A stretch of 64,000 nt of DNA from Buxus sempervirens. Taxonomy: Eukaryota > Streptophyta > Magnoliopsida > Buxales > Buxaceae. Of this stretch, positions 7,156 through 60,236 are shown in pieces. The position numbers and the translations under genes were made by a program. The DNA lies in assembly GCA_947561395.2 (NCBI GenBank), contig OX387192.1, forward strand, positions 14,668,221 to 14,732,220. Direction: 5' to 3'. The notes under the pieces are model-generated. The model was not told the DNA's origin. It ran no database searches and worked only from the letters and a program-made list of their open reading frames with translations. How positions within the stretch are numbered: the stretch's first letter is position 1; every line of letters begins with the position of its first letter.

Positions 7156-7700
7156 ATTGGAATTAAGGCTTCTAAAGCCTCCTGAAATTACTCAGGCTTT
7201 CAAGAGCCTATGAAGGGTTCTAGAATCACGTAAGCTTCTAGGGGCTTATGAGGATAAAGATATGAAATTTCAAGCTTTTAGAGGTCCTATGAGTTTCTAA
7301 ATTAAGGCTTTAGAAGGCCTATGAGGTTAAAAATATGAAATTCAAAGGCTTTCGGAGGCCTGCAGAAATTTTGGATAAAATATGAAATTCAAAGGCTTTC
7401 AGAGGCCCACAGAAATTTTGGATAAAATCTAAAATTCAAAGGCTTTTAGAGGCCCACAAAAATTTTGGATAAAATATGAAATTCAAAGGCTTTCAGAGGC
7501 CCACAGAAATTTTGGATAAAATCTGAAATTCAAAGGCTTCTAGAGGCCCATGGAAAATTTGGAGAAAGTATGAAATTCAAAGGCTTTCAAAGGCCCACAG
7601 AAATTTTGGAGAAAATCTAAAATTCAAAAGCTTTCAGAGGCCCATGGAAATTTTGGAGAAAATCTGAAATTCAAAGGCTTCCAGAGGCCCATGGAAAAAA
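7156..7700. repeat. About 47-bp minisatellite, 8 to 10 units, with hairpin cores
   Basis: The units are built on TGAAATTCAAAGGCTTTCA followed by GAGGCCCACAGAAATTTTGG. The first part is self-complementary with loop TTCAAAGGC. Degenerate older units run from 7156 to about 7330, cleaner units from about 7335 to 7690. The loop and arm plan is the same as in the 41-bp array at 41310-42138 of the related element. Confidence 0.8.
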
Positions 7701-11140: not shown

Positions 11141-11270
11141 TTATCCACATTATAATCATCTCCATTTATATTTGCTATATTAAAATGCAAGACAAGTCAA
11201 GTTTTCTAACAATTATCCACATTCAAATAGTATAACCATTAACCAATAATAAAAAATTGAATTTAGTTAC

Positions 11271-14600: not shown

Positions 14601-14609
14601 CTATTTTGT

Positions 14610-14790
14610 TTGTGTCTTAATCGGGTAACTCGTCGGTTTAAGGGTTATAATTGGGTTGACCCGATTACAGGTGGCTTGGAAAAATCCCAACCCGCACCCA
14701 ACCTAATTAATAATCAGGTCAACCCAAACCAGTTTAAGATGGGTCATTTCGGGTTGGCCCATCGGTTCAGGTCGCCTTTTGCCGGCTCTA
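14610..14790 (-). repeat. Subterminal region and terminal repeat of the hAT element
   Basis: Clustered GGGTTGACCCG, GGTCAACCC and GGGTTGGCCC motifs lead to the end TAGAGCCGGC (minus strand) at 14790. Dense short inverted motifs next to the end are typical transposase binding regions in hAT elements. Confidence 0.55.
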
Positions 14791-15149
14791 AATATTCCCC
14801 TTCAAGCAAGGATGAACACAATGAATTTTCAATTGAAGTGAACACCAACTAGCTTCTTGCTTGGTTTCCTTGAACCTACGCAACAAAACCAAAAGAAAGG
14901 TTCATAGCCATATTTATTCAAAAACTTAAATAAAAACTAACTAAAACAAATAACAAAACACAACAAAAAGAACACAAATTAAAGCTTAGGTTGCCTCCCA
15001 AGAAGCGCTTATTTATAGTCATAGCTCAACTTCTTCACCATCAACCATAGGTAGGATTTTGCAAGGAGTAAACCACTCCTTTGGGGACCATATTACCAGC
15101 AAAATAAAGCTTCAAACGTTGTCCATTAACCTTGAATGCTCCAGTAGCC

Positions 15150-16190
15150 TCACTATGTACCTCCAGCACCATATGGATACACTTTTGTTACCGTGAATGG
15201 ACCAGACCACCTAGACCAAAGCTTGCCTGGAAATAACTTGAGTCTTGAGTTGAAGAGTAACACTTGTTGCCCAATTTCAAAGTTTCTAATCTGTATATGT
15301 TTATCATGCCAATGCTTAGTCTTTTCCTTGTAAATCCTAGCATTCTCATAAGCACTCAACCTAAACTCCTCCAACTCACTCAACTGTAACAATCTCTTTT
15401 CTCTAGTAGCTTTTAAATCCATATTTAATTCCTTAATTGCCCAATAAGCCTTATGCTCCAATTCAACTAGTAAATGACAATATTTTCCAAAGACAAGCCT
15501 GTAAGGAGACATTCCCAAAGGTGTCTTGAAAGCTGTCCTATAAGCCCAAAGTGCGTCATCCAACTTAATTGCCCAATCCTTCTTTGAGTTGTTCACTGCT
15601 TTTTCCAAAATCTGTTTCAACTCTCTATTTGTAAGTTCCACTTGCCTATTTGTTTGAGGATGATAAGCAAGTGCCACTTTATGTGTAATCCCATATTTTT
15701 CAACCAAGCTTCAAATGACTGGTCACAAAAGTGGGAGCCATCATCACTAACAATGGCTCTTGGCACTCCAAATTTGGAAAATTTTCTCTTCTTAACAAAC
15801 CTCATCACAACCTTAGAATCATTAATCTGAGTTGAAATAGCTTCAACCCATTTAGACACATAATCCACTGCTACCAAAATGTATTGATTGTTGAAGAAAG
15901 AAGGAAATGGGCCCATAAAATCAATTCCCCACAAATCAAACAATTCAACCTTTTGGATATTGTTCAAAGGCATCTCATTTCTTTTGGAAATGTTGCCAAC
16001 TCTTTGACATCTGTCACACATGCTCACAAATTGTCTAGCATCTTGATACATGGTTGGCCAGTAAAAACCAGATTGCCAAACCTTTGCAATTGTCTTGGAA
16101 GTACTAAAATATCCACCACACTCTAGGGAATGAAAATGGTTAAGAATATCCTGAATCTCATCCTGGGGTATACATCTTCGAATCATCTCA
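15150..16190 (-). pseudogene. Integrase region of the Athila-like element
   Basis: Zinc-binding HHCC-type N-terminus (HFHSLECGGYFS, then CDRCQRVG), catalytic core (WGIDFMGPFP, then [16 protein letters not shown], then LAYHPQTN), and C-terminal part ending [18 protein letters not shown]. Fossil and broken. Confidence 0.8.
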
Positions 16191-16349
16191 TCTGCTCATT
16201 GTTTATAAAGTAGTGGTCCTTCTTAAAAATAATGCTTGACATCCCAAAGTAATTTCTTTTTCTGCTGATAACTCAAATCAGGGGGAAGAATGACACTCAC
16301 CAAATAATTAACCAAATCTGCATACCATGGAATGATTGACATTGCCAAC

Positions 16350-17690
16350 AACTACTCATTTGGAAAGCTTTCATTAATGGGCACTTGTTTTGCTCTTGAC
16401 TGCTCTTCCAATCTAGACAAGTGATTTGCCACCACGTTCTCCATGCCTTTCTTGTCTCGAATTTCAAGATCAAACTCTTGAAGCAATAGCACCCAACGAA
16501 TCAGACGTGGTTTAGCATCTTTCTTTTGTAGCAGATATTTGATTGCTAAATGGTCTTTATACACGATCACCTTGGAACCTACAAGGTAAGAACGAAACTT
16601 GTCAAAAGCAAACACAACAGCCAACAATTCTTTTTCAGTAGTTGCATAATTCAACTATGCATTATTTAAAACTCTACTAACATAATAAATAACATGCAAC
16701 TTCCTGTCTTTTCTCTACCCTAGAACAGCTCTTAAAGCAAAATCACTAGCATCACACATCAACTCAAAAGGTAAACTCCAATCTGGGGCTGCCATAATTG
16801 GTGCTAACACCAACTCTTGCTTCAACCTATTGAAAGCATTTAAACAGTTATTATAAAAATTAAACACAACATCTTTATTCAACAGATTACAAAGAGGTTT
16901 AGAAATTTTAGAAAAATCTTTGATAAAACGCCGGTAGAACCCTGCATGACCAAGGAAACTTCTAACTACCTTTACATTGGTAGGTGGTGGCAGTTTTCCA
17001 TTAACTTCTATTTTTGTTCGATCCACCTCAATACCTCTTTCTGACACTTTGTGGCCTAAAATATTACCTTCCTGTACCATGAAGTAACATTTCTCCCAAT
17101 TCAATACCAGATTGGTATCCTCACAACGCTACAAAACCAGAGATAAGTTATTTAAACAGCTATCAAAAGAAGTTACAAAAATAGAAAAACCATCCATGAA
17201 AATCTCCATGATCTTCTCAACAAAATGAGAGAAAATAGCCATCATGCAACGTTGGAATGTAGCAGGTGCATTGCACAAACCAAAAGAATCCTATAGAATG
17301 CAAAAGTACCATATGGACAAGTAAAAGTGGTCTTTTTCTTGGTCTTCTGGGGAGATAGGAATCTGGTTATATCCTGAATAACCATCTAGAAAACAATAAT
17401 AGCCATACCCAGCAAGTCTCTCAAGCACTTGATCAAGAAAAGGTAAAGGGAAATGATCCTTACAGGTAGCACTATTAAGTTTCCAATAATCTATGCAGAC
17501 TCTCCATCCAGTTACTATCCTAGTGGGAATTAATTCATTATTTTTATTATGCACCACAGTCATCCCACCCTTTTTAGGTACTACATGCGCTGGACTAATC
17601 CATGAACTATCAAATATAGGATAAATAATCCCTACATCTAACCATTTTAGAACATCCGCCCTCACTACTTTTTTCATGTTAGGATTCAAC
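16350..17690 (-). pseudogene. Reverse transcriptase and RNase H region of the Athila-like element
   Basis: The reverse transcriptase palm is recognisable (WISPAHVVPKKGGMTVV, CIDYWKLNSATCKDHFPLPF, FLDGYSGYNQIPI) and is followed by the connection domain (FLGHAGFYRRFIKDFSKISK). RNase H follows ([20 protein letters not shown], then DHLAIKYLL). Fossil and broken. Confidence 0.8.
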
Positions 17691-17695
17691 TTTCT

Positions 17696-18730
17696 CTAAT
17701 TTTCAACAACAGGTTTATAGTTATCCTCCATTAGAATCATATGTATACACAATGAAGGGCTAATTCCTCTAAAGTTTGATATAGTCCAACCTATGGCTTT
17801 CTTTCTCAATCCAAAAACACGCAGCAATTTATCAAGTTGAACATCAAATAAAGAATCACTCACAATCACAGGCAAGGTATCATTCTCACCTAAAAAAGCA
17901 TACCTTAGATATGAGGGTAATTGTTTCAACTCCAAAACTGGTGTTTGCACATTAGAAGGAGGAGGAAGTGTCTTACCTTTGCCTAAGTCCTCAAAATGAA
18001 TACCTCTTCGCTTCAGCCAAGGACCTGTAGCCTCTAAAGCACATGCACTCACTAAACAATTCTCAAGAGGTTCTTTAGTATTTTCAGCCGTAAAAACCTC
18101 TCTGATTGACTCATCTACCACATCAATTCTAAAAACATGGTCAGTAAAAGAACGGTATTTAGCAGATTCAAATAAATTAAATTCTACCTCTTCTTCATCA
18201 ACTTTCAAGGTCAACCTACCATTTTTTACATCTATGATTGCTCCAGCTGTGGCCAAAAAAGGCCTAACCAAAATGATAGGGATCTCTGTGTCTTCTTCCA
18301 TCTCTAAAACAACAAAGTCAATAGGAATGATAAACTTTTACACCTTGATCAACACATTCTCAAGAATTCCCAAAGGATATTTCATCGATCGATCAGCCAA
18401 CTGCAAGGATATGGTAGTAGGCTTCAACTCCTGTAATCCAAGCTTCCTAGGAACATATAAAGGCATTAGTGAAACACTAGCATCTAAGTCACACAAAGCT
18501 CTAGAAAAATTAACATCACCAATAGTACAAGGCCCTAGATCTCTTAGCTTTGGTGGAAGTTTATTCTGGATAATAGCATTACATTCCTCTGTCAAGGCAA
18601 TGGTCTCAAAATCTTCCAATTTCCTCTTCTTGGACATGATATCCTTTAAGAACTTTGTATAAGCAGGAATCTGTGTTAAGGCATCTGCAAAAGGAATATT
18701 AATGTGAAGTTGCCTAAACACTTTCAATAA
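17696..18730 (-). pseudogene. Protease region of the Athila-like element
   Basis: Contains DLDASVSLMPLYVPRKLGL, the Athila form of the retroviral aspartic protease site, and LVRPFLATAGAIIDVKNGRL downstream, as in intact relatives. Fossil and broken. Confidence 0.7.
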
Positions 18731-18739
18731 TTTTTCAAA

Positions 18740-20147
18740 CTATTGATCAATTTTATTCTGCTTAAGTCTTTGAGGAAAAGGAATGGGAGGAACATAAGGT
18801 TCAACAGGTGGTAGTGGGGATGGTGACTTAACTAGGTCCTCAACCTCTTCATTGGCTTTGTTATTCACCTCTTCCTGATCTGCTTCATCCCCAACCATAG
18901 TCTCACCACTTACTTGACCAAGTTGCTTACCACTTCTCAAATTGACTGCCTTGCAATGCTCTTTGGGATTAACCTTTGTCTTACTAGGCAAACTGCTCTG
19001 TCCTCTAGAATTTATGAAATTGGCTAACTGCCCCAACTGCATCTCCACATTCCTGTTGGAACTAGCTAACTGGTCAAATTTTGCTTCCAACTTCTCAAAC
19101 CTCTCTGAAGTGACATTGGCTAACTTCTAAATGGCTATCTCCCAAGATTGCTTACTCTTTGATTGAGATGGTCTTTGTTGGAAACCAGGAGGATTGAATG
19201 GTCTAGAATTGCTACCTTGGTTACCTTGATCCTTCTATGAGAAATTTGGACGATTCCTCCATCCTGGGTTGTATGTGTTGGAATAAGGGTTATTCTGTTG
19301 CTGCTGCCTGTTAAAATTAGAAACAAATTGAGTTTGCTCTACTTGCATACAATTAGAGCTCATGTGAGCTCCTCCACACCAATCACAACTCAATACAGGA
19401 CTAGAAATAGCATTCAAAATTTACCAAACATCTTTACCAAAGAGTCAACCTTAGCATTTAACATGTTCATGCCATCTATATCATGCATACCTGGAACTTT
19501 CTTAGGCATACCTCTTTCATTAGACCAATGGTAATTATTAGAAGCCATCTCTTCTAACAACTCATATGCATTTTCTGTTGACTTACCCATTAAAGTACCA
19601 CCTACAGCTGCATCTATGGTAATCCTGACTGAATGTGTTAATCCATTGTAAAAAGCTTGTACAATCAGCCAATCAGGAAGACCATGATGTGAACATTTTC
19701 TCTGTAAATCCTTAAATCTTTCCCAAACTTCATACAAAGATTCACCATCAAATTGAACAAAACTAGTAATATCATTTTTGAGTTTAGCAGTCTTACCTGG
19801 GGGAAAATACTTATTCAGAAAAGCTTGTGACAATGCATTCCAAGTGGTGAAAGAGTTAGGTACTTTGGAATTCAACCAAACCTTGGCTTTGTCCCTTAGA
19901 GAAAATGGAAAAAGTCTAAGCCGAATAACATCCTCACTAACTCCATTCATCTTGATGGTATCACAGATTTCTAAGAAATTAGCAAGGTATGCATTTGGAT
20001 CCTCTGTATGTCCTCCTTCAAACTGCTCCTACTGCACCATATGAATGAGACCAGGCTTAATCTCAAAGTTATTTGCATTGATTGTAGGTCTCACTATGCT
20101 GGTTTGAGCTCCATTGACATTCGGCATTGCATAATCATGTAACAGTC
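18740..20147 (-). pseudogene. Main part of gag of the Athila-like element
   Basis: The gag core is seen at RLRLFPFSLRDKAKVWLNS and QRKCSHHGLPDWLIVQAFYN, followed by a CxWCxGxHxxxxC knuckle (CDWCGGAHMSSNC). It continues beyond the inserted solo LTR into 23142-23290. Fossil and broken. Confidence 0.75.
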
Positions 20148-20954
20148 TGTAACATCCCAAAATTTTCTAATTTGGTACTTGGACTAATTAAAATGTTTTC
20201 TATTAATTCAAATTCTAATTTATAAGATTCATGATAATTAAGGGGCATGATTATTTCAGTGGATTAGTAATTACCTAACATATAATTATATGCAAGATGA
20301 TTCCTAATTGATTTTGATGAACTCTAATGATTTTTAACAATTTATTATGAATTTATTGGTATTTATTGGATTTGTAATTGATTTTATTGGGATTTAATTA
20401 GCTTTAAAAGTGTTTAACTTCAGTTAAGTTAGATAAAAGGGTTTAAAGTATGGTCTTAGGGTCTTTGGGTGTGGACCTTAGTGCACCTTTTGTAGGTCGG
20501 TGATTGGTAGGAGGAATTGTTGAGGGATTAGGAGGGACTGGTGTAAGGGCGATACATTGGATCATCTCTAACAGAGTATGTGTCAAATCCTCCTGAATAG
20601 AGAAAGCGGGTGTTAGAATAGAGAGAACAAGTGTTTAGTATAAGTGTCGAATTCTCCATTCCTCTATTCCTTTTCTGTGTTCTGCCAGACTCTATGGCTC
20701 TATTCCTTCTCTATTGGTGTTGCCTCTTCTTGGTGTTGGGTTCAGTTCAGTTTTGATTACACAACTCATCTATTTCCTTCAAGGTGGTTGCTGATTTCTG
20801 CATCTGAATCAAGTAAGTCATCAGTTAATTTGTTTTGGAGTAGATAATTTGGTTGCTGAATGTCTAATTATTATACCCATGGGTTTTAGTTGATTTATTA
20901 GAGACTTTGTTAAAGTTTTGGAATCATATACGTATGCTCTGTTTCTGGTTTTAC

Positions 20955-28311: not shown

Positions 28312-29503
28312 GGGGACGTTTGGTGGGCATTATAGAATCTAGATTCTTGTAGAATCTAATTCTATAATCAAACAAGGGCATTTGGTTGGGATTTTGAGGC
28401 CAAATTATACAATCTAATGTCATAATCTACCTGTAATCAAAATCTCTCTTAAAGGTGATTATAGGGATTATGGACATTTGTGTTTACAATTCCAAAATCA
28501 GTGATTCTACAGATTATACATAACATATTAGATAGATATTACAATAAATAACAAAATTATAAGCATTATAGTATTATATATTTTTATATGATATATTATT
28601 AATAATATAATATAACATTAATTTAAACAAAAATAATATTATATATTGTATATAACATATTTATATATATATATAATGTTTTATTATATTATAATACATA
28701 ATATACTATATTATATATGACGTTATATAGAATTTAATATAATATATTATAATAATATAATAGTATAATATGTATTATACTATATTATCATATGGTACAT
28801 ACAATATTACAATATACGTAGTATAAATAATATAATATTATATAATGTATACTATGTATTTGTAAAATAATATTATATTATAATATAAATATAATAAATT
28901 ATATACGATATTACATATTATATTATATTATAATATGTTACATATATATTTTACATTATACATAGTATATATAACAAAATATTATATAATACATTATTTA
29001 TTTAATACTATAAACTAAAAATATTATATATATTATAATATGTTAAATATAATATATGTTTAATAATATTTGTATTAGATTTAGTATAATACTATAATAT
29101 ATTATGTAATATTGCATATATTATATTACATATAATATATATATATATAAAATATGTAAGATTATGTAAGACATATATTTTATATATATAGTTTATATTA
29201 TATTATATTATATATACATATTATTTTTAATATGTTTAATAATATATTATTTTAAATATGGTATTAATTTTGAATATACATTATATTATTTTTGTAAAAT
29301 TTTTAATATAAAAACTCCAAATTTATTCTCAATAACATTGTCAACCAAACGAGATTCTAGTTTCTAATCGTATAATTAGATTCTTAAATCTATGGTATTC
29401 GAACAAGATTATGGATTTTTCAGAATCAGGGACTATAATTTGGATTATCAAAATCCAGTTATAATCCATAATACGAATTCTATAATGCCCACCAAACGCC
29501 ACC
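28312..29503. mobile_element. 1.2-kb AT-rich terminal-inverted-repeat element
   Basis: The left end GGGGACGTTTGGTGGGCATT and the right end, read in reverse as GGTGGCGTTTGGTGGGCATT, match at nearly every position, and the inverted match continues through ATAGAAT. Flanks are TTA on the left and TAA on the right, which is not a clean direct duplication. The GGNGNCGTTTGG end resembles plant PIF/Harbinger-like MITEs. There is no transposase. The middle 28540-29310 is almost pure A/T. Confidence 0.6.
28540..29310. repeat. Cryptic A/T repeat, about 770 bp
   Basis: Nearly only A and T, made of imperfect TATAATAT and ATATTATA runs with no fixed period. It forms the core of the inverted-repeat element. 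Confidence 0.75.
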
Positions 29504-33133: not shown

Positions 33134-35134
33134 GTAAGACATATAAGACACCATTTTGGTACTTCTCGTGTTTCAATCCATATCTTTTGCTTCAAAATAA
33201 TGTTGCTAGAAAACTCTTTGACTCTAGTGGGTATCTAACTTCTACTAAGTGTGAGACATGGGAAAAAAAATCACCGGAGTGATCATCCCACCGTCAGCAC
33301 ACGGGCTCAACGCAAAAATTGGGAGAGTCGTCACCATTCATGATTTTGGGGTGAGAATGGACACCAAAGAGTTCAAAATAAGCAAAAATAGCCGAAAGAC
33401 AAATTCTAGGGAAAAAATAACCTTACTTGAAAATAAAATCCAGAGATGGGTAAGGGGATTAGATTATGAACGGGGGAAGGTGTTAGGCACCCCCATTCAT
33501 CCACACGAAGTGGTTGCCAAGTGTATGTTCATGCTAAAAAGAAAATAAGAAGCTTGCTAAAAATCATGAAAAAGCCTTGAAAAAGGAACAAATGTATGAT
33601 ATATTCACATGAAGATCTAAATGGATTTTAGATCCTCTCTTATGTCAATATCACTTCTGGAGTATTTCAAAAGATGGAAATCAAAGTAAAAGTGGCCAAA
33701 ACCAAGTTGAGGCAAATCCTGGAATTTTGGTAAAAAGTAAGGTCCTTTGCCTTAAAATCATTCAAATCCAATTCTGAATTGAACCAAACCAAATCCATTT
33801 GAAAGATTAGGGTAAATAAGAGTCTCATACAAAATCTCAAGTTAATCTGATAAAAATCCTAGGAGTTATGCTCCTTTGAAGTTGCTGCTGGGGATTTTTA
33901 AAAGTGTTAAGTGGGTAACTTTGGAAAATTGTCTAGAAAAATTCACTACACAAAAGTCCACGAAATTTGGTGTGATTGAAGTTTGTATGGCCATCTTTCC
34001 ATAGAAACTAGCCTCATACAAAAATCCCTTCGGATGTGCCTTGGGTGGTCTCCCGAACAGGCCCCGAAGATCACAGATTTACCCAGAAAAGTGCAAATGA
34101 GCAGTTCTGAGTAAATCGGCTACCAATAATTCAAATGGAATCCAAAAATTATGAAACCAACTAGATTTGAAAATAGACTCAAAAAGGAGTACTCAGAAAT
34201 AAAAATCACTCGAATCGGACTTAAAACGAACACATGGCGGTCCGTCGAAGTGACAAGTTCTGTACTTGAACCTGAACTGTCCACTCAACTTCGACAGAGA
34301 GGTGTCAAAAATCGCCTAGATAAAAATTCATGAAATTTGGTGGACATAAGCTAGACAGCCTCACCTTTCCCATGGTTCTAGAATCACCCCAAAAGTCATC
34401 CGGATGATGAAGTTATGGGCGTCCGAAGTAAGGGTACAGGTGCTGTCAAGTTAAGCCATTTTTGAAGAAATCCAAGTCCGAAAATTGATAAAAAAATATG
34501 TGATTCGTGTGCGATGAATCCAAAACCCTTGAAAAACATTTAAAAACACTCCAGAATTTGATTGAGGTCATTTATTTGAGCTTTATCACAATAAATGCAA
34601 TAAACCCCAAATATGAGCCTATCCCGCCAAAATAGTGATATGTGTGCAAAAGTGAAAAAAACCAAGCAAGATCCATACACATGCATATAGATTCAACAAA
34701 ATAGGTTCTAGCATAGCCTAGGGTTCCGTTCCATTATCGTTTCCCTCTGTTCTCTTTAAGATAATCAAGGGTACTTTGAATATGGAACGGTTTACAATCA
34801 ATCAAAAAGGCCTTATGCTACATAGGTTCTAGCACTGGGGTCAATCCCCAGTCTCGTTTCTCCTAGATCCGCCTTCACGTTTTACGGCTAGGGGAGTCTT
34901 GAGATACTTTGAGCCGGGGAAGGATTTCCACACATACAAACAAGGCTTTACACTACAGAAAGGTAGAAGAAGAGATCTAGATCTAGGAATGTAAAGACAG
35001 AAAATAAAAAGAAAAGTTGAGGCTTACCTGAGTTCTGGAGGCGATTCCACAGCGGTTTCCTCCTTCTCTTGGAGTTCTTCTTTGCGAGAATTCAAAACAA
35101 GAGTTGTCTGCCATTTGCTCAAGGAGGAGGCTCC

Positions 35135-35142
35135 TATTTATA
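35135..35142 (-). promoter_or_regulatory. TATA box in the 3' LTR
   Basis: TATAAATA on the minus strand in the context GCCTATAAATAGGAGCC. Transcription would start about 30 bases on, near 35105. Confidence 0.6.
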
Positions 35143-35296
35143 GGCAAGGGCTAAGGTCATTGGTAGACACAAATTAATGTCTAGAACCCCTCCAACCTAA
35201 ACCCTAAGGTTATTTCTGCGATTTCCCTTCATTTAATGAGGGACATGATGGTAAAAGTGAAAAGCTCTCGGAAAACCCTAATTTTGAGCAAACTTA

Positions 35297-35452
35297 AGGT
35301 ATCCGGTATATCAGGCCGGATAACAAAGGGCTTTAAGGTATCCGGTACATGGTACCGGATACCCTAAGGCTCACGTGTATCCGGTATGAGTATCCGGATA
35401 CGGGAAAGAGTACTTGTATCCGGATTGAGTATCCGGATACAGGTAAAAGTTT
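35297..35452 (-). repeat. TATCCGGATA palindrome array in U3 of the 3' LTR
   Basis: Seven or more copies of GTATCCGGTA, GTATCCGGAT or their complements. The best is GGTATCCGGTAC (35337-35348), three bases, GTACCGGATACC (35352-35363), a perfect 12-bp inverted repeat. It is copied in the other LTR at 47509-47664. Confidence 0.8.
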
Positions 35453-35530
35453 ATTCTCTTCAAATTCTGTGCTGGCTTTCCAGGAGATAATGATTGTTGA
35501 TGATTGTTTGTGCAATTTGGGGTGTCTACA

Positions 35531-36287: not shown

Positions 36288-38994
36288 CAAATTTTGAAAA
36301 CAATGTGAATTTAAAATTGACCTCTGCAAACTCAATTGCTTTTGATGTTTTTCAACAATAAGGAAGGAAATATTTTATTGAATTTTCCTGATTCATTTTC
36401 TTATTTGATTTACCTGGGTGCATTTGATGCCCAAACCTGTGCTTGAATATTCTGCAACTTGCTTTTGCTTCTTCCTCTTCTTGCTCTCTCAATAAGGATG
36501 TATGTGCCATTGCTGCCCATAGCCTGCCTTTATGCTTCTCAACTGCCCAAGTGACTGCCTCTTCTTGATTGATGGATTTGAAAATCATGATCTGTTGATC
36601 TAACCTCATGCCCTTACCACCCATGACCTCTCATTCATGCCTTCTTACTGCTCCAGTAAAATCCTTCCTCAGAATTGGAAACCTTTGTTTGAAGGAGAAA
36701 ACATGCAACTGCTTCTTTTTTTTTTTCAAATCCAAAGACTAAGGCCTGATTGCTTCCTCCAGATGCTGTAATTTATTTCAATGAAAACCCAAAGGGAAAA
36801 ATACTGAGCATGCCCCGGCTTTGATTGCTTGAAGAAATATTTGCCCCTCAGCAGAGATAATCCTCTTTTTTTTCTTTTTCTCTTTTTTCTCTTTTTTTTT
36901 CTTTCTTTTTTTTTTTTATTTTTTAACCTTCGCAAAAAGAAACCCTTATAAAGGAATGCAAAATAACAAAATAGGTTTTATACTAGTGGCCTCAGAATTC
37001 TCTAATGCTTGCAAAACCAATGTTTTTATGAAAAGACATAAATGCTCATCATAGGCCAAAAATATATTTTTTTGCTTTTTTTGTGTTTTTTTTTTTTTTT
37101 TGAAAAATGATCCAATCACTTATTATCATATAGTCCAAAAGAATTAAAATCAAGTTGAATAATGAGAAGATTATTTCAGAAAATGAAGAAAGACCAAAAT
37201 AAGCCTTCAGAACCTTTAGAATCATTCCCATGACCTTCGGCTTGTCAATTGATGCTCCAGATATGCCGACTCTTTTAATCTGACTATTTTGCCCCAGTCT
37301 AGAAAGACATTTTCCTTCATCCAATTGAAGAGCAATTGTTTCTCCATTGTATCCATGATATGAGAATTTATGATTTCAACTTCAGCAATAATTTCCTAAT
37401 GGCAATTTTGATGGCCATCAACTTGTTCACAAATGCTTTATACCATAGCTCTGATTATGTTTGCTTCAATCTTGAAAAGAAGACTTTCCTCAATCACTTG
37501 AAGAGTGAAAAAAACCACCAACTTGAGGATTTCACCTGGATCTATGCCAATTCTGGATTTTTCTCACTGACAATTTCCTTCTTGTAGATAGCTGATTATT
37601 TGCCATGTAGCCCCCTTCTAGGTTTTCACTACATTTTCTCCATTTTTCTCTTTTTGTTTTTTTTTTGTTTTTTTGTTTTTAATCCTTCATCATCAGCAGC
37701 TATGTAGTTAAAACCGCCTTAATTCAAAATTTCTTAATCAAAGAGGACTTATGGATGGGACGAAACGAAGGCTTGGTGTTTGTTTAGAAAGAAAAGGAAT
37801 AAAAGGCTCAAATACCATATGATCTAATGGGTTAACTGAAATTGCAATTTTTAAGGCATTTCTTCCCTTGGAATGAATACAAAATTGCCCCCAGTAATGA
37901 AGTTCTTCACCCACTTTGATTTCTTCATTTAAAACTTATTTCCCATTATTGAACTTCTTTTCTCATTCTTCCCTTCACAATTTTGAAGATATAGCATTTG
38001 ATGATCTGTTTTTCTTCTTTCTTCCCTCTTTTTTTTTTTTCATTTCTTTGCCCCCTTTTCTGAAAACATCTTCAAAATCCCTTTTGAACTTCAATAATTC
38101 CCCCCTTCTCTTGTCCCTTCATTCTTTTCTTTTTTATGCCTTAATAAATTTGCCCCAGTGTGGGGTTGCAATTCTCAGTTTAGGTTACTTGGAAAAATTT
38201 ATCAAGCTCAAAGGGTCTAACTAGGGATTTCAAAAATTTTGGGATATAAGAAAGAAAGGCCTCTTATCATTTTAAGAGAAATTTGAATTTTTAGACTTGA
38301 CAGAGTTGTACTACATGACTGGCTCAGGATTTTTCTTTTTCTTTTTTTTTTTTTTTTGATCACCACCACCTGGGAAGATAAAATTTCAACCATAAAACAT
38401 TCTTCTCATCGGATCAGCCTCTTAAATCGCAATCCAAATCTTTCCATATTTTCCGATGGAGAGTGCAAACTAGGAGTCATCTTCAAATGCAAAAATTTCA
38501 TCTTTCAGTTTCTTTTCCATCTGCTTTTCCTTGATGAGCAAGTGATGCGATCCTCTCTGTATTTTTATGAAATAAATCTTTGTACTTGCTGCTTTCAAGT
38601 GAAAACTTCGGGTCATCTTTGGTTCTAAAGTCTATAAGATTGGTCACTTCAAAATTTTGCAGAAATATTCTTCTCATGACACTTAAAAAGATTTGAATTT
38701 TCATATAAAATGTCTTTTTCTTCGATTTCGGTCTCAAAATTGAGCCCAATGTCGAAGTCATATTCAACTTAATGAAATTCAATGAGAGATATGACTCATA
38801 AGTAAAACAGGACCTTGTTGAAAACCTTTTTTTTTTTTTTTTTTTAGAAAAATGTTAAAGGGGAAAATCTTTTTTTTTTTTATAACAAAAATCTTAAAGG
38901 AAAACTCTCTCTTTTTTTTTTTTGAAAGAGCCTTTATTGAAATCACTTCCTGAGAACAAGGCTCCTTAGGATCCTCAGGAAATGTGCATTCTTC
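36288..38994. other. Non-coding 3' part of the gag-only element
   Basis: About 2.7 kb between the hairpin region and gag. It is rich in T runs and C/T-rich tracts (36710-36920, 37075-37105, 38020-38050, 38340-38360, 38825-38930). No protease, reverse transcriptase or integrase motif was seen in any frame. Confidence 0.65.
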
Positions 38995-41133
38995 TTAAGG
39001 GGGTTTCTTTTCAGAGAACAAGGGAATTTGAAAATTGCCCCCGTTCTCAAAGGCAAAAGCTAGCTTTTCTTTCTTTTTCAGAAAATTTCTTTCTGCTGCT
39101 GAGTGAGGCAAGTTTCTTTTTTCATGATTTGGGATGATCCCCTTCTTTGGGGTATTGTGCTCAGTTTCTGAAAGAAGTGACATTCCTTGATACGGAATCT
39201 GGATAGCAGCCCAGTCAATCAATGGCAGCTTAAACCTGGCCTCAATCTTTTCTTTTGATTCTTCTTCTTTCTTTTCCTGGGATTCTCCCTTTTCAATTGC
39301 TTCTACTTCATTTTCTTCTTGTATGAAGAGTGATTCCATACCCTTCAGACAATCATTATCATCCATACTGACTTCTTGTTCAACATCCCGTGCTAGGCCA
39401 CTTGTTTGCTCGAACTGCTCAAATGGAATTGTTTGCACCTCCTTTGCCCTTTCACCTGTCATTTCATTTTCTTTCACCTTCGGCTTAAAATCTGCCCCCG
39501 TGTGAGTCTCTTTCTCCACGTGGCCCCCTTCATCTTCTTTTTCAAAATAAACCTGGACTGTGGTACCAACCGGAGCAATAAGTTGAGAAGGGTCAAATCT
39601 TCTTTTTCCTGAAAAAATTGACCCTATTGCATTTGAGCTGCTTGCCCCATTGTTGCTGTTGGGAGGAGGAGTGGGTATGACTGAATTGAATGATAGAGAG
39701 TTATTATCCAGCAAATCCTGAATTGCATGCTTTAGGGCCAAGCAACGATCTGTGGTATGCCCTGGAGTGCTCATATGATACTCACAGATTGCAGATGGAT
39801 CATAACCCTTCCCCTTGCTTGCATGAGGATTTGGCAACCTCAAAGTCACATAACCCTTTTCAAGTAGGGTAGGCAAAAGTTCAGATGGTCTCATAGGCAG
39901 TTTTGAAAACTCCCTTCTCTTCCTTACTTCTGTTTCCTCCTTCACAGGCTGTGCAGAAGGGACATTAATTTGGATAGGCAGCAAAGGAACTGGATGGGCA
40001 TTGATTTGAACGGGTCCCTTGGGAAGCTGCACCATATTCACTTCTGCTTCTCTCCTTTCCTCTGATTTTCTCTTTCCATTACCATTTCCCTTGTTATGAG
40101 TGGAGTCTTGTTGACTGATCATGGTGGAATAATCAATTATCTTGCCAGATTTGATCCCATCCTCAATCCGGCCGGCCACTTGTACCAGGGCAGAAAAATT
40201 GGTGGTGATCTGACCCACCAGGTGATTGTAGAAGGGCTGCCCCAGCGTACCCATGAATGTTGAGATCATTTCAGGTTCCAGTATAGGCGGCCTGACCTGA
40301 GAGGCAGCCTCTCTCCACCTCTTGGCGTACTGTCATACCGGCTCATCTTTCCCTTTGGTCATCCTCATCATGTCGTACCGGTCCGGCACAATCTCAGAGT
40401 TGAATTTGTATTGGTCTAAGAAGGTGTCTGCCAGGTCCTTCCATCCTCTAATCTTCCCATGATCAACTGTGGCAAACCACCTCAAGGCCGATCCTGTCAA
40501 ACTCCTCTGGAAGAGTTGAATCAGTATGCCATCATCCCGACCAAACTGGCACAAAGCCCCGCAGTATAGTTTCAAATGGCTCATAGGGCAGCCTGTGCCG
40601 TCGAACTTGTCGAAGTCCGGGCACTTGAACTTGGCTGGTAGACATACATTAGGATACATGCACAGATCCTCGAAGTTGGTGCCTCCATGGCTGCTTCCCC
40701 CTTTCACTTCCTTCAGCTCTGCCTGGATCCTTTCTATCTTGAGCAGCATCTTCTTTTCCATCTCATCTCGGGCCTTTTCTTTCTCCAGCTCTTTATCAGA
40801 CTCTGCTGTATTTTCCCTGATCAGAATGGGTTCAGGGACTGGTTCAGAAATGGGCTCGGGCATGGGCTGAGCCGGAGGCGGCATGTAGGCCTGAGGTGGT
40901 GGTGCCTGATGGGAGGTAGAGGCTTGGTTTTGAGCTTGGGCCTGCTGGGTTTGAGCCGCCAGTAGGTCTCCCAGCATCTTGGCCAGACCAGCCACTTGCT
41001 CCTGCAGCTGAGCAAAGTCTTGAGCGGGTACGGTGGCTTGGGCTTGGTTCTCTTCAGTGTTCATAGCTCTGGCTTTGGATATGGTCACGGGAGCAATGAT
41101 TGCAAATAAGTGTACCTGAGTAAGGAAAAACAA
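38995..41133 (-). pseudogene. gag region of the young Ty3/gypsy element
   Basis: Coiled Gln-rich N-terminus (AQLQEQVAGLAKMLGDLLAA), Pro-rich linker, gag core (FEDLCMYPNVCLPAKFKCPD, LTGSALRWFATVDHGKIRGW), then a knuckle-like CEYHMSTPGHTTDRCLALKH and an acidic Glu/Lys-rich tail. It matches the left element's gag closely but ends without the protease block. It is nearly whole, with about one break. Gag would form particles that could package related RNAs; that is inference from the family. Confidence 0.85.
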
Positions 41134-41280
41134 AGAAACATGTCAGCTCCCATTTAATCTGAGTCACACATCTATAAATGTAGATAAGTGGGTTAAGTGA
41201 ACACAAGTCCGGATTTATTTGTTTTTTTTTCTATATTTTTCCATTTTTTGTTTTGTTTTTTTTTTATTGTTGGAATATTT

Positions 41281-42138
41281 AGGGCTTCCAAAGGTCCCAA
41301 AGAATGAGAAATGTCTAAAATTCAGAGGCTTTTAGACGGCCCAAAGGATACGTGTCTATAATTCAGAGGCTTATAGACGGCCCAAAAAATTGTGTCTAAA
41401 ATTCAGAGGCTTTTAGACGGCCCAAAGGATATGTGTCTAAAATTCAGAGGCTTTTAGATGGCCCAAAAAGGTTGTGTTTAAAATTCAGAGGCTTTTAGAT
41501 GGCCCAAAAAGGTTGTGTCTAAAATTCAGAGGCTTTTAGACGGCCCAAAGAAATAATTTGTCTAAAATTCAGAGGCTTTTAGACGGCCCAAAAAGGTTGT
41601 GTCTAAAATTTAGAGGCTTTTAGATGGCCCAAAAAGGTTGTGTCTAAAATTCAGAGGCTTTTAGACGGCCCAAAGGATATGTGTCTATAATTCAGAGGCT
41701 TATAGACGGCCCAAAAAGGTTGATGTTTGAAATTCAGAGGCTTTCAAATGGCCCAAAAAGGTTGTGTCTAAAATTTAGAGGCTTTTAGACGGCCCAAAAA
41801 GGTTGATGTTTGAAATTCAGAGGCTTTCAAATGGCCCAAAAAGGTTGTGTCTAAAATTTAGAGGCTTTTAGACGGCCCAAAGGATATGTGTCTATAATTC
41901 AGAGGCTTATAGATGGCCCAAAGAGATGTGTGTCTATAATTCAGAGGCTTATAGACGGCTCAAAATAGGTTGATGTTTGAAATTCAGAGGCTTTCAAATG
42001 GCCCAAAAAGGTTGTGTCTAAAATTCAGAGGCTTTTAGATGGCCCAAAGGATATGTGTCTATAATTCAGAGGCTTATAGACGGCCCAAAAAAAGTTGATG
42101 TTTGAAATTCAGAGGCTTTCAAATGGCCCAAAAGTTTT
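41281..42138. repeat. 41-bp hairpin minisatellite, 20 units
   Basis: Each unit is an arm, the loop TTCAGAGGC (sometimes TTTAGAGGC), a complementary arm, then a CGGCCCAAAAAGGTTGTG-like spacer. Arm pairs are TCTAAAA/TTTTAGA in 10 units, TCTATAA/TTATAGA in 5 and TTTGAAA/TTTCAAA in 4. One unit near 41475 has TTTAAAA/TTTTAGA. Unit length is 41 to 43 bases. Confidence 0.9.
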
Positions 42139-42164
42139 TTGACTTTGAATGGTTCTCGTGACCA

Positions 42165-43470
42165 AACAAAGGTTCTTGGAATATTCTGAGGCTTCCAAAT
42201 GTCCTAATAAATTTTTGATTTGATTGATAAAAATAACCAACCAAGGTTTCTTGGAATATTCTAGGGCTTCCAAAGGTCCCACAATTTTTTTTTGATTTGA
42301 TTGATAAAAATAACCAACTAAGGTTTTCATGGAATATTCTAGGGCTTCCAAGGGTCCCAATTTTTTCTGATTTGATTGATAAAAATAACCAACCAAGGTT
42401 TTCATGGAATATTCTAGGGCTTCCAAGTGTCCCACAAATGTTTTGATTTGATTGATAAAAATAACCAACCAAGGTTTTCATGGAATATTCTAGGGCTTCC
42501 AAGGGTCCCAATTTTTTTTTTTTGATTTGATTGATAAAAATAACCAACCAAGGTTTTCATGGAATATTCTAGGGCTTCCAAGGGTCCCAATTTTTTTTTG
42601 ATTTGATTGATAAAAATAACCAACCAAGGTTTTCATGGAATATTCTAGGGCTTCCAAGGGTCCCAATTTTTTCTAATTTGATTGATAAAAATAACCAACC
42701 AAGGTTTTCATGGAATATTCTAGGGCTTCCAAGTGTCCCACAAATGTTTTGATTTGATTGATAAAAATAACCAACCAAAGGTTTTCATGGAATATTCTAG
42801 GGCTTCCAAGGGTCCCAATTTTTTCTGATTTGATTGATAAAAATAACCAACCAAGGTTTTCATGGAATGTTCTAGGGCTTCCAAGGGTCCCGATTTTTTT
42901 TTGATTTGATTGATAAAAATAACCAACCAAGGTTTTCATGGAATATTCTAGGGCTTCCAAGGGTCCCGATTTTTTCTGATTTGATTGATAAAAATAACCA
43001 ACCAAGGTTTTCATGGAATATTCTAGGGCTTCCAAGTGTCCCACAAATGTTTTGATTTGATTGATAAAAATAACCAACCAAAGGTTTTCATGGAATATTC
43101 TAGGGCTTCCAAGGGTCCCAATTTTTTCTGATTTGATTGATAAAAATAACCAACCAAGGTTTTCATGGAATATTCTAGGGCTTCCAAGGGTCCCGATTTT
43201 TTTTTGATTTGATTGATAAAAATAACCAACCAAGGTTTTCATGGAATATTCTAGGGCTTCCAAGGGTCCCGATTTTTTGATTTGATTGGTAAAAAGGAGA
43301 CCAATCAAGCGTTTTTTATGGAATATTCTAGGGCTTCCAAGGGTCCCAATTTTTGATTTGATTGGTAAAAAAGAGACCAATCAAGGGTTCATGGAATATT
43401 CTAGGGCTTCCAGAGGTCCCACTTTTTTTTTGACTTGATTGGTAAAAAGGAGACCAATCAAGGGTTTTTT
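42165..43470. repeat. 75-bp minisatellite, 17 units, two hairpins per unit
   Basis: Units run from GGAATATTCTAGGGCTTCCA through a TCCCAATTTTTT tract to TTGATTTGATTGATAAAAAT and AACCAACCAAGGTTTTCAT. Hairpin one pairs TGGAA with TTCCA. Hairpin two is TTGATTGAT with ACCAACCAA in most units and the perfect TTGATTGGT with ACCAATCAA in the last three. Homologous to 6656-7155. Confidence 0.88.
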
Positions 43471-44680
43471 TTTATTTATTTTTTCAAATTTGCTGAATTT
43501 TCTCAGTTTTCAAGTTCTAAAGTTTAACTGACACATGTTTGAGTTGAGTTGGTGTCAAAAAATATGACACCTTGGTTTCCTCTTTGATTTTCAAACTTAG
43601 GTTAAATCCTGAAAGAATATTTTATTTTATTCTTTTTTGTTTTTTTTTTCTTTGATTTTGTATTTTTGGGAACATTTCTTATGTCCTTTTCGGGGTGCCT
43701 AAGGATTATCCACAGTGTTTTAGGCATTTTATTTTGAAAATTTGGACTGAAAAGCCAATTTGTGCATTTTTTGAATGTATCCGGTATAATATTCCGGATA
43801 AGAATATGCCTTATTGTATCCGGTCACCATAACCGGATTCACGCATATGCCCTTGTATCCGGAAATATATACCGGATATGAACAGAGTTGTTTTTAACCG
43901 GCCTGAGTTGCCGGTTATTGCCGAAATGGCCCTTTTTGACTCATTTTTTCACCCGATTTGATTTTTTTCATTCCCAATTGATGTTCACCTTAATTTGACC
44001 TTCAAAACTTGCCCCAAATTGGGCTTGGACATCATACTTGCAAAATTCCCCAAATTTAAGAAAAGGACATGGCTTTACCTTGCCACCTTGTATTACCTTC
44101 ATTCAATATGGTATTCACATTATACCTTGGCCTGTAAAACATGCAAACGGCCTTTCCACAATTACACCCAATTTCCCCAAACGCCATTGTGTGCTTTTAG
44201 CCGAAAACGTGTTTCTCCACCTTCAAGCGTATGGTTTTTGGGTTTTGGCTTAATTGGCAACTTAGAACTCAAGTCTAGTGATGCCCGGAATCGAATCACA
44301 GATCCCATTGTCATCACATCATTGACTCAAATTCTAAGGTAAATGCTTTCACTTTCTCTTTCCGAAGTCACGACCTCGGTGCGCCAAGCTACACACATTC
44401 ATGGTTCAACTTCCTAATAGGTAAAGGGTAGGCTGTGCAAATTGTTTCAAGTGCTCAAGTGCAATTTTAAAATTGTGGTAACATTCATAACGTCCCAGCC
44501 CCTTGCCACTCTTTTTCGTAGCCATGCATTCAATTTCAAGCCAAGGTACAAATGACAAAGATCATGAAGCTAAATACAAGCAAGCAAGCACCAAAACAAC
44601 TAAATATGCACAAAAAATATTACATGCCCAAAAAGTGGTATACAAAACATGTTATTTGTACAAACAACAATTAAATCATG
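43471..44680. other. Middle leader of the gag-only element
   Basis: No gene. It holds T-rich sequence, the palindromic motif array at 43775-43925, and blocks shared with the left element's leader such as CGGTGCGCCAAGCTACACAC. Confidence 0.6.
43775..43925. repeat. TATCCGG / CCGGATA motif array in the leader
   Basis: Copies of GTATCCGGTATAATATTCCGGATA-like inverted pairs, TATCCGGTCACCATAACCGG and TATCCGGAAATATATACCGG. This is the same signature motif as in the element's U3 at 35297-35452. Confidence 0.75.
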
Positions 44681-45215
44681 CAAGCATGCTTGAAACCCAA
44701 AAGCATTCCTATAATTCCAGATTTCATGCTCTTTTTCATGCTCAAAGTGTACCATTTCTACCCGAATTGGAGCCTAAAATTTTAGCACTACTTGACATGG
44801 TACAAGAAAGGTTTTGATGATTTAAGCATGCTTGAAAACCCCCAAGTATACACTGAAATTTCCAGATTTTTTGTTCTTCATTTTTTGTGCTCAAATGACA
44901 TTGTTTTATGCCCAAATCCATGCCTAAAAATATAGCACCTAAATGTATTGCACAAGAGGTATTTTGTTGAGGAAAACATGCTTGACAAAGCCCAAATTGG
45001 CTACTGGATTTACAGATTTTATGTCCTTCATTTTTGGTGCTCAACATGCTTCATTCATACCCAAATCAAAGCCTAAAAATTTAATCCCTAACATATGGCA
45101 CACTAAAGGTTTGAATTGAAGGAAAACATGCTTGGGAATCCCAAAAATATACATTGAGTTGCTGGATTTTTTTTTTTATTTTCATGCTCAAAACATGGTA
45201 CTAAAACCTCCTAAA
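44680..45215. repeat. About 130-bp tandem repeat, 4 diverged units
   Basis: Each unit begins with a CATGCTTGAAAACCC-like sequence, has a CCAGATTT...TTCATGCTC middle and a CCTAAAATTTAGCAC-like end. The left element has one clear copy near 9280-9420. Confidence 0.65.
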
Positions 45216-45440
45216 ACAAGGTATACAAAAAAAAAAAACAAGTAGGCATGCCCAACAAGGTAAGGCCATAAACATAAGCATAATCTAACCATACACACAT
45301 GCCTTTATCAATGTAAAATTTAAAAGCATCCCCATCAGATTTAGAATACACCAATATACACCAATAAAGTAAACAAAATAGCAAGCATTCAAAAGTGATG
45401 AAAAAGCATGAATATACACAAAATGGCTTAAATCCACAAG

Positions 45441-45458
45441 TCCCCAGCAGAGTCGCCA
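45441..45458 (-). other. Primer-binding site of the gag-only element
   Basis: Minus strand TGGCGACTCTGCTGGGGA begins two bases from the LTR edge. It would pair with a tRNA ending in GTCGCCA. Ogre-type elements are reported to use tRNA-Arg, but I did not verify this match. Confidence 0.7.
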
Positions 45459-47346
45459 GTTGTGAGACATGGGAAAAAAAAATCACCGGAGTGATCATCC
45501 CACCGTCAGCACACGGGCTCAACGCAAAAATTGGGAGAGTCGCCACCATTCATGATTTTGGGGTGAGAATGGACACCAAAGAGTTCAAAATAAGCAAAAA
45601 TAGCCGAAAGACAAATTCTAGGGTAAAAATAACCCTACTTGAAAATAAAATCCAGAGATGGGTAAGGGGATTAGATTATGAACGGGGGAAGGTGTTAGGC
45701 ACCCCCATTCATCCACACGAAGTGGTTGCCAAGTGTATGTTCATGCTAAAAAGAAAATAAGAAGCTTGCTAAAAATCATGAAAAAGCCTTGAAAAAGGAA
45801 CAAATGTATGATATATTCACATGAAGATCTAAATGGATTTTAGATCCTCTCTTATGTCAATATCACTTCTGGAGTATTTCAAAAGATGGAAATCAAAGTA
45901 AAAGTGGCCAAAACCAAGTTGAGGCAAATCCTGGAATTTTGGTAAAAAGTAAGGTCCTTTGCCTTAAAATCATTCAAATCCAATTCTGAATTGAACCAAA
46001 CCAAATCCATTTGAAAGATTAGGGTAAATAAGAGTCTCATACAAAATCTCAAGTTAATCTGATAAAAATCCTAGGAGTTATGCTCCTTTGAAGTTGCTGC
46101 TGGGGATTTTTAAAAGTGTTAAGTGGGTAACTTTGGAAAATTGTCTAGAAAAATCCACTACACAAAAGTCCACGAAATTTGGTGTGATTGAAGTTTGTAT
46201 GGCCATCTTTCCATAGAAACTAGCCTCATACAAAAATCCCTTCGGATGTGCCTTGGGTGGTCTCCCGAACAGGCCCCGAAGATCACAGATTTACCCAGAA
46301 AAGTGCAAATGAGCAGTTCTGAGTAAATCGGCTACCAATAATTCAAATGGAATCCAAAAATTATGAAACCAACTAGATTTGAAAATAGACTCAAAAAGGA
46401 GTACTCAGAAATAAAAATCACTCGAATCGGACTTAAAACGAACACATGGCGGTCCGTCGAAGTGACAAGTTCTGTACTTGAACCTGAACTGTCCACTCAA
46501 CTTCGACAGAGAGGTGTCAAAAATCGCCTAGATAGAAATTCATGAAATTTGGTGGACATAAGCTAGACAGCCTCACCTTTCCCATGGTTCTAGAATCACC
46601 CCAAAAGTCATCCGGATGATGAAGTTATGGGCGTCCGAAGTAAGGGTACAGGTGCTGTCAAGTTAAGCCATTTTTGAAGAAATCCAAGTCCGAAAATTGA
46701 TAAAAAAATATGTGATTCGTGTGCGATGAATCCAAAACCCTTGAAAAACATTTAAAAACACTCCAGAATTTGATTGAGGTCATTTATTTGAGCTTTATCA
46801 CAATAAATGCAATAAACCCCAAATATGAGCCTATCCCGCCAAAATAGTGATATGTGTGCAAAAGTGAAAAAAACCAAGCAAGATCCATACACATGCATAT
46901 AGATTCAACAAAATAGGTTCTAGCATAGCCTAGGGTTCCGTTCCATTATCGTTTCCCTCTGTTCTCTTTAAGATAATCAAGGGTACTTTGAATATGGAAC
47001 GGTTTACAATCAATCAAAAAGGCCTTATGCTACATAGGTTCTAGCACTGGGGTCAATCCCCAGTCTCGTTTCTCCTAGATCCGCCTTCACGTTTTACGGC
47101 TAGGGGAGTCTTGAGATACTTTGAGCCGGGGAAGGATTTCCACACATACAAACAAGGCTTTACACTACAGAAAGGTAGAAGAAGAGATCTAGATCTAGGA
47201 ATGTAAAGACAGAAAATAAAAAGAAAAGTTGAGGCTTACCTGAGTTCTGGAGGCGATTCCACAGCGGTTTCCTTCTTCTCTTGGAGTTCTTCTTTGCGAG
47301 AATTCAAAACAAGAGTTGTCTGCCATTTGCTCAAGGAGGAGGCTCC

Positions 47347-47354
47347 TATTTATA
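47347..47354 (-). promoter_or_regulatory. TATA box of the active-side (5') LTR
   Basis: TATAAATA on the minus strand, same context as at 35135. It would drive the genomic RNA of the gag-only element from about 47315. Confidence 0.6.
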
Positions 47355-47508
47355 GGCAAGGGCTAAGGTCATTGGTAGACACAAATTAATGTCTAGAACC
47401 CCTCCAACCTAAACCCTAAGGTTATTTCTGCGATTTCCCCTCATTTAATGAGGGACATGATGGTAAAAGTGAAAAGCTCTCGGAAAACCCTAATTTTGAG
47501 CAAACTTA

Positions 47509-47664
47509 AGGTATCCGGTATATCAGGCCGGATAACAAAGGGCTTTAAGGTATCCGGTACATGGTACCGGATACCCTAAGGCTCACGTGTATCCGGTATG
47601 AGTATCCGGATACGGGAAAGAGTACTTGTATCCGGATTGAGTATCCGGATACAGGTAAAAGTTT
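47509..47664 (-). repeat. TATCCGGATA palindrome array in U3 of the 5' LTR
   Basis: Second LTR copy of the array at 35297-35452, lying 155 to 310 bases upstream of the TATA box. Confidence 0.8.
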
Positions 47665-48989
47665 ATTCTCTTCAAATTCTATGCTGGCTTTCCAGGAGAT
47701 AATGATTGTTGATGATTGTTTGTCCAATTTGGGGTGTCTACACTAAGTTGAGACCCAAATAAGAAGATTGGTGGTAGTTTCATTATTTGAGGTTTGGGCA
47801 AGCACTTTTCACACATTCACACGTCAAGCTGGGTTGGGTTGGCTGCATGTGTCATGGTTGTTGTCTGTTCATACATGAGATAGAATTATAATTCTTATAA
47901 GAATGGGATGCTATTGAGGGGAAATGGAGTAATAGGAAAGATTGGTCAAAATTAAAGAGATATATGATGAATTCTCCACGTTTTAGCATCCAAGGCCTTT
48001 TTTTCTTTAAAAATAAGTCTTTAAAGAAATTAAAGACATTTTTAGGAAGTTTTTATTATCTATTCTTGGAGATTGTAGTTAGAAATTGAGTATAAATTAT
48101 TAAAAAAAATCAAACGAGAATTCAGATATAGTTATTGTATACAGATGCAACTCCCTTATTTTATACTACTTTTTTTTTCTTTTTTCTTTTTTTGTTGCTG
48201 ATTTACTTGTATAGAACTTGGACACTTTGTAAAGGGAAATTGCAGCTCCAACTGTATCAAGATAAAGCATTTTAAATTTCATTACATTGATGTGAACTCT
48301 AAAATTTCTTTTCAAGTTTTATGAAGGTTTTGAGAACTACATCTAATAAGGTCTTCTTGCTATATACCATTGTTATGCTCTGTTTTTGCTTTTACTCTTT
48401 TTTGTACAGATATTTTCTGGGGTGGGTTTTCTTTTCCTGTCTAAGTTACTTTGTTTCTTAAATATATGCTTTCCAGGTTTGTTGGATAGATCATAACTGT
48501 TTTGGATAGAGATGAAATGATTTGAATCTGGTTAGTTTGCGTGAGAACCTCTTACTTGTCTTTGATCCAAAAACAGGGTTCTTTGATATCATTGGGTTAT
48601 AGGATCCTAACTACTGGTGAAAAAAATGACATTGAGGAACTGAAAGCCCATCTTTTACCTTCTGTTAGTTTGGGTGAGAACCTCTTACTTATTTGATTAT
48701 GTGATCAAATGTCATGCTCTTGTGTATTTTAAATTTGGTTGCATTTTAAGAGATATAAATAAGTTAATGTTGGAAAGTAGGAGATGGTGAAAGCATGTGG
48801 CCAGCCATTTATGAAAAAGCTCGCATAAGACAGAAAAAGGTGGTCATTTTCTTGGTTTGTTTTTGTTTATAGTTTATTTAGTGGGGACTTAGTAGTTTTA
48901 AATCAGTTTGTGGTTATTTAAGGTGGTCATTTTCTTGGTTTGTTTGGTTATTTAAGGTCGTAATGACGTTGTCATTCATTACAACATGC

Positions 48990-60195: not shown

Positions 60196-60236
<41 letters not shown>

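Follow-up and report, generated by a model that had tools for sequence, protein, structure and literature searches.

How do the two arms of a hairpin stay complementary when the hairpin is one of twenty units in a minisatellite whose arm sequence varies, and does the fold matter as RNA or as DNA? The question is raised by a 41-bp tandem array (41312–42134, minus strand) in the window, the 64,000-nucleotide stretch of Buxus sempervirens DNA analysed here. By TRF and unit reading, the array consists of 20 hairpin units, termed H1, with arm versions TCTAAAA, TCTATAA and TTTGAAA; units read by the loop anchor alone span 41314–42123. The original prediction described 20 arm-loop-arm units sharing a constant loop, with both 7-nt arms complementary in 19 of them and three versions of the arms. 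Loop-anchored reading confirms the units and their pairing, and identifies the lone non-complementary unit as the fifth (TTTAAAA/TTTTAGA). The three arm versions are as claimed and differ by one, two or three pairs. The loop proved less uniform, being TTCAGAGGC in 17 of the 20 units and TTTAGAGGC in three. In sense RNA each unit reads GGGCC-N-arm-GCCUCUGAA-arm′. The GGGCC flank and the GCC of the loop, between which a pseudoknot was considered, are almost invariant within the 41-bp family and within a 47-bp family described below.

The array is hosted by a plant-type LTR retrotransposon of 14.5 kb whose sense strand is the minus strand. It is recognised as such by an LTR pair of about 2.28 kb with TG..CA ends, located at 45461–47742 (5′ LTR, minus) and 33250–35530 (3′ LTR, minus), and by the target-site duplication CTAAG at both flanks (33245–33249 and 47743–47747). 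Judged by the 9 mismatches between its LTRs across 2,279 aligned bases, the element is a recent insertion. A putative primer-binding site, TGGCGACTCTGCTGGGGA in the sense orientation, was read at 45441–45458 (minus). The gag reading frame, drawn from the ORF list and a profile match, runs from its ATG at 41064 to 38995 (minus) with an in-frame stop inside. Its first piece matches Retrotrans_gag with an E value of 0.00036 and 21.1 bits, which is below the curated cut-off of 24.1; the second piece gave no Retrotrans_gag match in the profile search, and the ORFs listed between the LTRs include no long pol-like frame; the element may be of the gag-bearing, non-autonomous kind. The type of gag is the one feature that points to the Ty3/gypsy lineage. 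Between the 5′ LTR and gag lies a leader of about 4.4 kb. Placement of the repeats in the element's 5′ leader, as originally predicted, is correct, and donor, branchpoint and acceptor signals sharpen it to a predicted intron 5′ of gag.

The hairpin arrays appear to be located in an intron of about 3 kb just upstream of gag. As predicted from conserved donor, branchpoint and acceptor signals, the intron measures about 2,963 nt (41116–44078, minus) and holds every hairpin set. It is preceded by the internal part of a predicted leader exon 1 (44079–45460, minus), which is partly conserved between both element families. On the sense strand directly 5′ of gag stand CTGAC, a pyrimidine tract and CAG:GTAC, the colon marking a predicted splice junction. 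The branchpoint-like CTGAC (41142–41146, minus; A at 41143) has the form CTRAY in 60 of 64 aligned loci. The predicted 3′ splice site AG (41116–41117, minus), followed by GTAC at 41115–41112, is an AG in 54 of the 64, with the dinucleotide at the exact acceptor place in 36 of 38 41-type and 18 of 26 47-type loci. Many variable bases of the pyrimidine tract switch between C and T. These counts cover the 64 of 80 sequences that align across the whole stretch, and in them branchpoint, pyrimidine tract and AG are conserved in the manner of the 3′ end of a spliceosomal intron.

At the 5′ end, a donor-like cluster (44074–44099, minus) contains CAAG:GTAAAG, whose first intron base would be 44078, and GAAG:GTAATA (44096). 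All 26 loci that align at this end retain a donor-like AG:GTAA; among 33 47-type loci, AAG:GTAA sites are clustered and some have been lost. We rejected the notion that homology between the families ends exactly at one donor: in 47-type loci the alignment continues through two or three donor-like sites, and because it runs on among them, our claim is limited to the donor cluster. The intron is not U-richer than exon 1 (30.0% against 34.7% U), and exon 2 with gag has 21.4%.

Genome-wide searches covered one genome, a 676.5-Mb assembly. The acceptor form YAG:GTACAYTTAYTTGCMA occurs there at 534 places, some copies having two. AAG:GTACAYTTAYTTGCMA, the form expected of a spliced copy, occurs at three places, all of which are mutated acceptors with intron sequence upstream. 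A longer exon-2 pattern lacking the acceptor matches 330 places, and the three non-YAG cases read, among the matches listed, are mutated acceptors; the search patterns represent one exon-2 sequence form. No intron-less copy was seen at the acceptor places inspected. Since the intron is kept at every one of them, unspliced RNA would be what gets reverse transcribed.

Hairpin density in the predicted intron is far above chance. With arms of at least 7 and loops of 5–12, it holds 28 perfect hairpins, where 20 dinucleotide shuffles average 1.85 and reach 6 at most; the observed number is inflated by tandem duplication of a few founder units. Eight stretches were compared in this way. The intron of a related element in the window has 11 perfect hairpins (1.7 shuffled, maximum 4). 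Three further stretches are slightly over their shuffles, namely exon 1 plus LTR (6; 2.35 shuffled, maximum 5), 3300–6500 (6; 1.25, maximum 3) and 10500–20500 (9; 5.05, maximum 8), and the remaining three are not above them.

Besides the 41-bp array, the predicted intron contains a 76-bp array (42165–43448, minus; TRF and unit reading) that combines H1 hairpins (TGGAA/TTCCA, loop TATTCTAGGGC) with a second hairpin, H2 (TTGATTGRT/ACCAAYCAA). Nearer the donor lies H3, a set of four CCGG-cored hairpins about 39 nt apart (43778–43917, minus), recognised by hairpin scan and by alignment in 25 loci. An isolated perfect hairpin, GGTGTCA-AAAAATA-TGACACC, is found outside the arrays at 43551–43571.

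A second, related leader at 6.5–10 kb of the window has hairpin arrays of its own, all on the minus strand. They comprise a 75-bp array with GTTGGAA/TTCCAAC hairpins (6664–7160; TRF and hairpin scan), a mixed zone of hairpin units of about 40 nt with several arms, some imperfect (7155–7345; unit reading), and a 47-bp array (7330–7691; TRF and unit reading) whose family has the main arm TCTGAAA/TTTCAGA and the loop TTCAAAGGC. A TGCGGAC/GTCCGCA hairpin, one copy perfect and others imperfect, follows at 8180–8296 and matches the H3 place by its order. This leader probably belongs to gag frames and a G-patch match further down; the G-patch domain lies at 1–459 (minus), downstream of the related element's gag frames. 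Because units of the 47-bp family are more decayed, the related element is probably older than the window element.

Across genomic copies the H1 arms remain matched to a high degree. Units in fetched loci were located with a looser anchor, which allows two substitutions in the loop and two in the flank and misses units with broken loops. The loci are top-scoring matches (the best 40 of 867 candidates in one search and the best 40 of 1,641 in another), chosen by similarity to the window and including some near-duplicates, such as L018 and L019. Of 1,230 units found by the anchor, 1,052 form all seven pairs, 126 form six and 52 form fewer, the last being mostly misregistered 76-bp units. In 1,048 units (578, 290 and 180) the two arms match one and the same version exactly, and 165 units have at least one arm outside the three versions. 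Mixed-version units number 17, of which a single substitution could account for 12. The order of versions differs strongly from copy to copy of the array, so the arrays are reshuffled while their arms stay matched.

Pairing is looser in the 47-bp family, where 327 of 572 units form seven pairs and 193 six of seven, and where C/G positions account for most of the recurring one-sided changes. The original prediction had regarded one-sided arm changes as frequent as paired ones as evidence against a selected fold, and that picture is found in part: one-sided changes are frequent in genomic copies, above all in the 47-bp family. Because they are common, it is the differences among established arm types that carry the covariation. 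We infer that one-sided variants mostly reflect the decay of dead copies after insertion.

Neither the 41-bp array nor every loop is essential. Four copies read as introns from the best 40 of 1,564 candidates (L095–L098) are at least 98% identical around the donor and have shorter predicted introns; the 41-bp array is absent from them and therefore cannot be indispensable. In L095, L096 and L098 the loop GGGCTT, or the hairpin as a whole, is missing from some 76-bp units, and since some keep their arms after loop loss, the loop reading is not essential for every unit.

Paired arm change itself is real, being seen again in arm types outside the window array and in the aligned neighbouring set H3. 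The plan of arm, loop ending in GC, arm and C-rich flank is found with further arm types, namely GTTGGAA/TTCCAAC, CTTGGAA/TTCCAAG, TCTGAAA/TTTCAGA, CCTGAAA/TTTCAGG, TTCTAAA/TTTAGAA and TTAAGGAA/TTCCTTA, and many 76-bp H1 units have a mismatch. Covariation, for which the original prediction proposed a test, lies above a tree-aware null in Watson-Crick pairing and in doubly changed cells; for H1, the count of pairs changed on both sides is by itself not significant. For H1, Watson-Crick pairs reach 91.6% against 52.9% in the null, and cells changed on both sides number 90 against 20.9 (each with 0 of 500 shuffles as high), while 5 doubly changed pairs compare with 3.4 (59 of 500 as high). The null moved substitutions among variable columns on a parsimony tree, a weak one built on 27 columns. 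Of 477 distinct unit sequences, 88 entered the test, namely the 91 present in at least three loci minus 3 that are misregistered or non-hairpin.

For H3, the test used 24 distinct rows of 25 flank-matched ones from 92 sequences, with no 47-type loci and with the structure taken from the window copy. Under a null over variable columns, standard pairs amount to 95.6% against 86.3%, a level that 0 of 500 shuffles reached, and doubly changed pairs to 6 against 2.1, reached by 1 of 500; the latter excess is less marked with substitutions placed over all columns, where 49 of 500 come as high. Parsimony assigns 46 one-sided events and 1 simultaneous event to H3. In one 41-family locus, L039, all four H3 hairpins differ from those of most other loci by the same paired change, present on both arms, a pattern which suggests that the hairpins within an element change in concert. 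Overall, the structural inference is supported, and the original reading as a whole partly so, while the function is a proposal.

The strand that folds is less uniformly indicated. Folding as RNA, one of the two forms originally proposed, draws clear strand-specific G.U support from H2 and suggestive support from H3, but none from H1, and for this reason an RNA fold seems more likely than single-strand DNA or template switching. In its commonest form, found in 206 of 345 units and 39 loci, H2 pairs over 9 bp in sense RNA, two of the pairs being G.U; read from the opposite strand, these two would be A.C mismatches. At the two variable pairs of H2, Watson-Crick states are linked via G.U, and the sense-A.C alternative is absent there among the 40 forms listed. 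One-sided departures from Watson-Crick pairing in H3 lead to G.U on the sense strand 17 times and to A.C 8 times. For H1, one-sided events are balanced at 10 G.U and 11 A.C. The 41-bp units count 50 sense-G.U against 24 sense-A.C, yet 11 distinct forms stand on each side, so the excess is probably clonal; unit counts in the 47-bp family lean away from sense G.U. We therefore rejected the H1 strand test as support for RNA. Folding energies are unremarkable and do not mark out the arrays: on the sense strand the mean z is -0.80 for the 41-bp array and +0.11 for the 76-bp array, and for the window's 47-bp array it is -0.11 on the sense and -2.37 on the opposite strand. A search of window positions 38900–47800 against Rfam returned no matches at E values up to 0.1.

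Among other explanations, the one that survives best is mechanical palindrome correction, in which a template switch, made while DNA is replicated or RNA reverse transcribed, rewrites one arm from the other and the fold is not selected. Such switching has been put forward, in the parts of PMC8794818 drawn on here, as a way in which hairpins with compensatory changes arise and persist. A single event would fit the three-pair jump from TCTATAA to TTTGAAA, and the uniform paired change in the four H3 hairpins of L039 and the balanced H1 events also suit it. It gives no reason, however, why H1 loops keep their GGC end and C-rich flank across arm types, a regularity that the anchored search partly builds in. 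Nor would it lead the variable H2 pairs through G.U and not sense A.C, as in the forms listed, or let one-sided H3 events so far exceed simultaneous ones. We consider it unlikely, yet a serious rival, as is the next reading.

The hairpins could instead be DNA-level dyads, that is, inverted-repeat protein-binding or promoter-associated motifs resembling the palindromic ones of Sireviruses and acting in double-stranded DNA. The Sirevirus (Ty1/copia) motifs are palindromic, mostly with a CGG-CCG core and with further symmetry that varies, as in AATCCGGCTWRCCGGATT of a Citrus element; they occur in the LTRs and the non-coding linker, and their authors regard them as Sirevirus-specific and as possible DNA regulatory boxes (sections of PMC2829016 used here). 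Several CCGG-cored palindromes are also present in the LTRs of the window element (47550–47652 and 35338–35440), resembling both these repeated motifs and the leader H3 hairpins. In both systems many short palindromic boxes with a CGG-CCG core lie in the LTRs and non-coding region, with symmetric bases that vary between elements (same sections of PMC2829016), and among described systems these motifs come closest to H3 and the CCGG boxes of this element's LTRs. The likeness of H3 to the LTR boxes favours the dyad reading, which fits H3 better than H1. Here the gag matches are to Retrotrans_gag, below the cut-off, the boxes extend into the predicted intron before gag, and H1 combines a similar loop end with variable arms that have no fixed core. 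A reader of half-sites would also tolerate mixed halves, yet 17 mixed units stand against 1,048 matched ones, although inheritance of whole units would likewise keep halves together. The commonest H2 form, moreover, is fully paired only as sense RNA. On this evidence the dyad reading receives a lower probability again.

Least probable is a neutral minisatellite, in which a few hairpin founders spread by amplification and homogenisation, leaving paired differences that go back to two or three ancient accidents and serve no present function: the mere three arm versions of the array, the many one-sided changes in the 47-bp family and the variable array length and order, including absence of the 41-bp array, would agree with it, but it is disfavoured by both tree-aware nulls, which H1 and H3 exceed, and complementary arms of differing sequence recur in several families.

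The best explanation, which we advance tentatively and as close to an even call, is that the leader-intron hairpins form an RNA tag on unspliced genomic RNA for packaging or export. Spliced RNA would be translated into Gag and unspliced RNA would serve as the genome, with the tandem hairpins acting as a multivalent tag carried by unspliced RNA only and absent from the spliced Gag mRNA. The tag would most likely be a Gag-binding packaging signal; an export or splicing-control element is less likely and would fit nearly as well. Copy number would shift by minisatellite expansion, and selection at each round of transposition would keep the arms paired. A bolder version, possible but on balance unlikely, sees in the 5′ intron a fast-evolving forest of hairpin minisatellites that lets splicing separate Gag mRNA and genomic RNA, the multivalent unspliced-only tag evolving by unit amplification and compensatory arm replacement and perhaps escaping competitors or host recognition.

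Retroviral packaging signals and the CTE and RTE export elements each consist of one or a few defined structures, and partners are known for some. They differ in this from the tandem minisatellite hairpins described here, and resemble what we propose in being structured cis-acting RNA on unspliced retroelement RNA (parts of PMC10309623). The sorting logic has a precedent, because BARE1 of barley makes a spliced RNA for Gag alone and packages unspliced RNA (excerpts of PMC3735527). The BARE1 intron is 104 nt long and lies at the end of gag, with no hairpin array mentioned in those excerpts, whereas the intron predicted here is about 3 kb and lies upstream of gag. Other plant Gypsy elements likewise have tandem arrays in, or derived from, their non-coding parts: in the portions of the sources used, Retand arrays sit between pol and the 3′ LTR (PMC11963269) and CRM-derived repeats stem from the LTR-UTR (PMC3648361). 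The origin and function of the Retand repeats are said to remain unknown (same portion of PMC11963269), and the word "hairpin" has no occurrence in the main texts of PMC11963269 and PMC3648361. In open-access literature at title and abstract level, we found no report combining a leader intron with hairpin or stem-loop repeats in LTR elements. Tandem repeats recur in plant LTR retrotransposons; here they show covariation and stand between intron-like signals, which yields a concrete, testable proposal for the role of such repeats and for the way in which a plant retroelement keeps its translated and its copied RNA apart.

Elsewhere in the window, A/T-rich irregular repeats of about 700 bp occupy 28567–29289, and a run of 30 C lies at 60197–60226.
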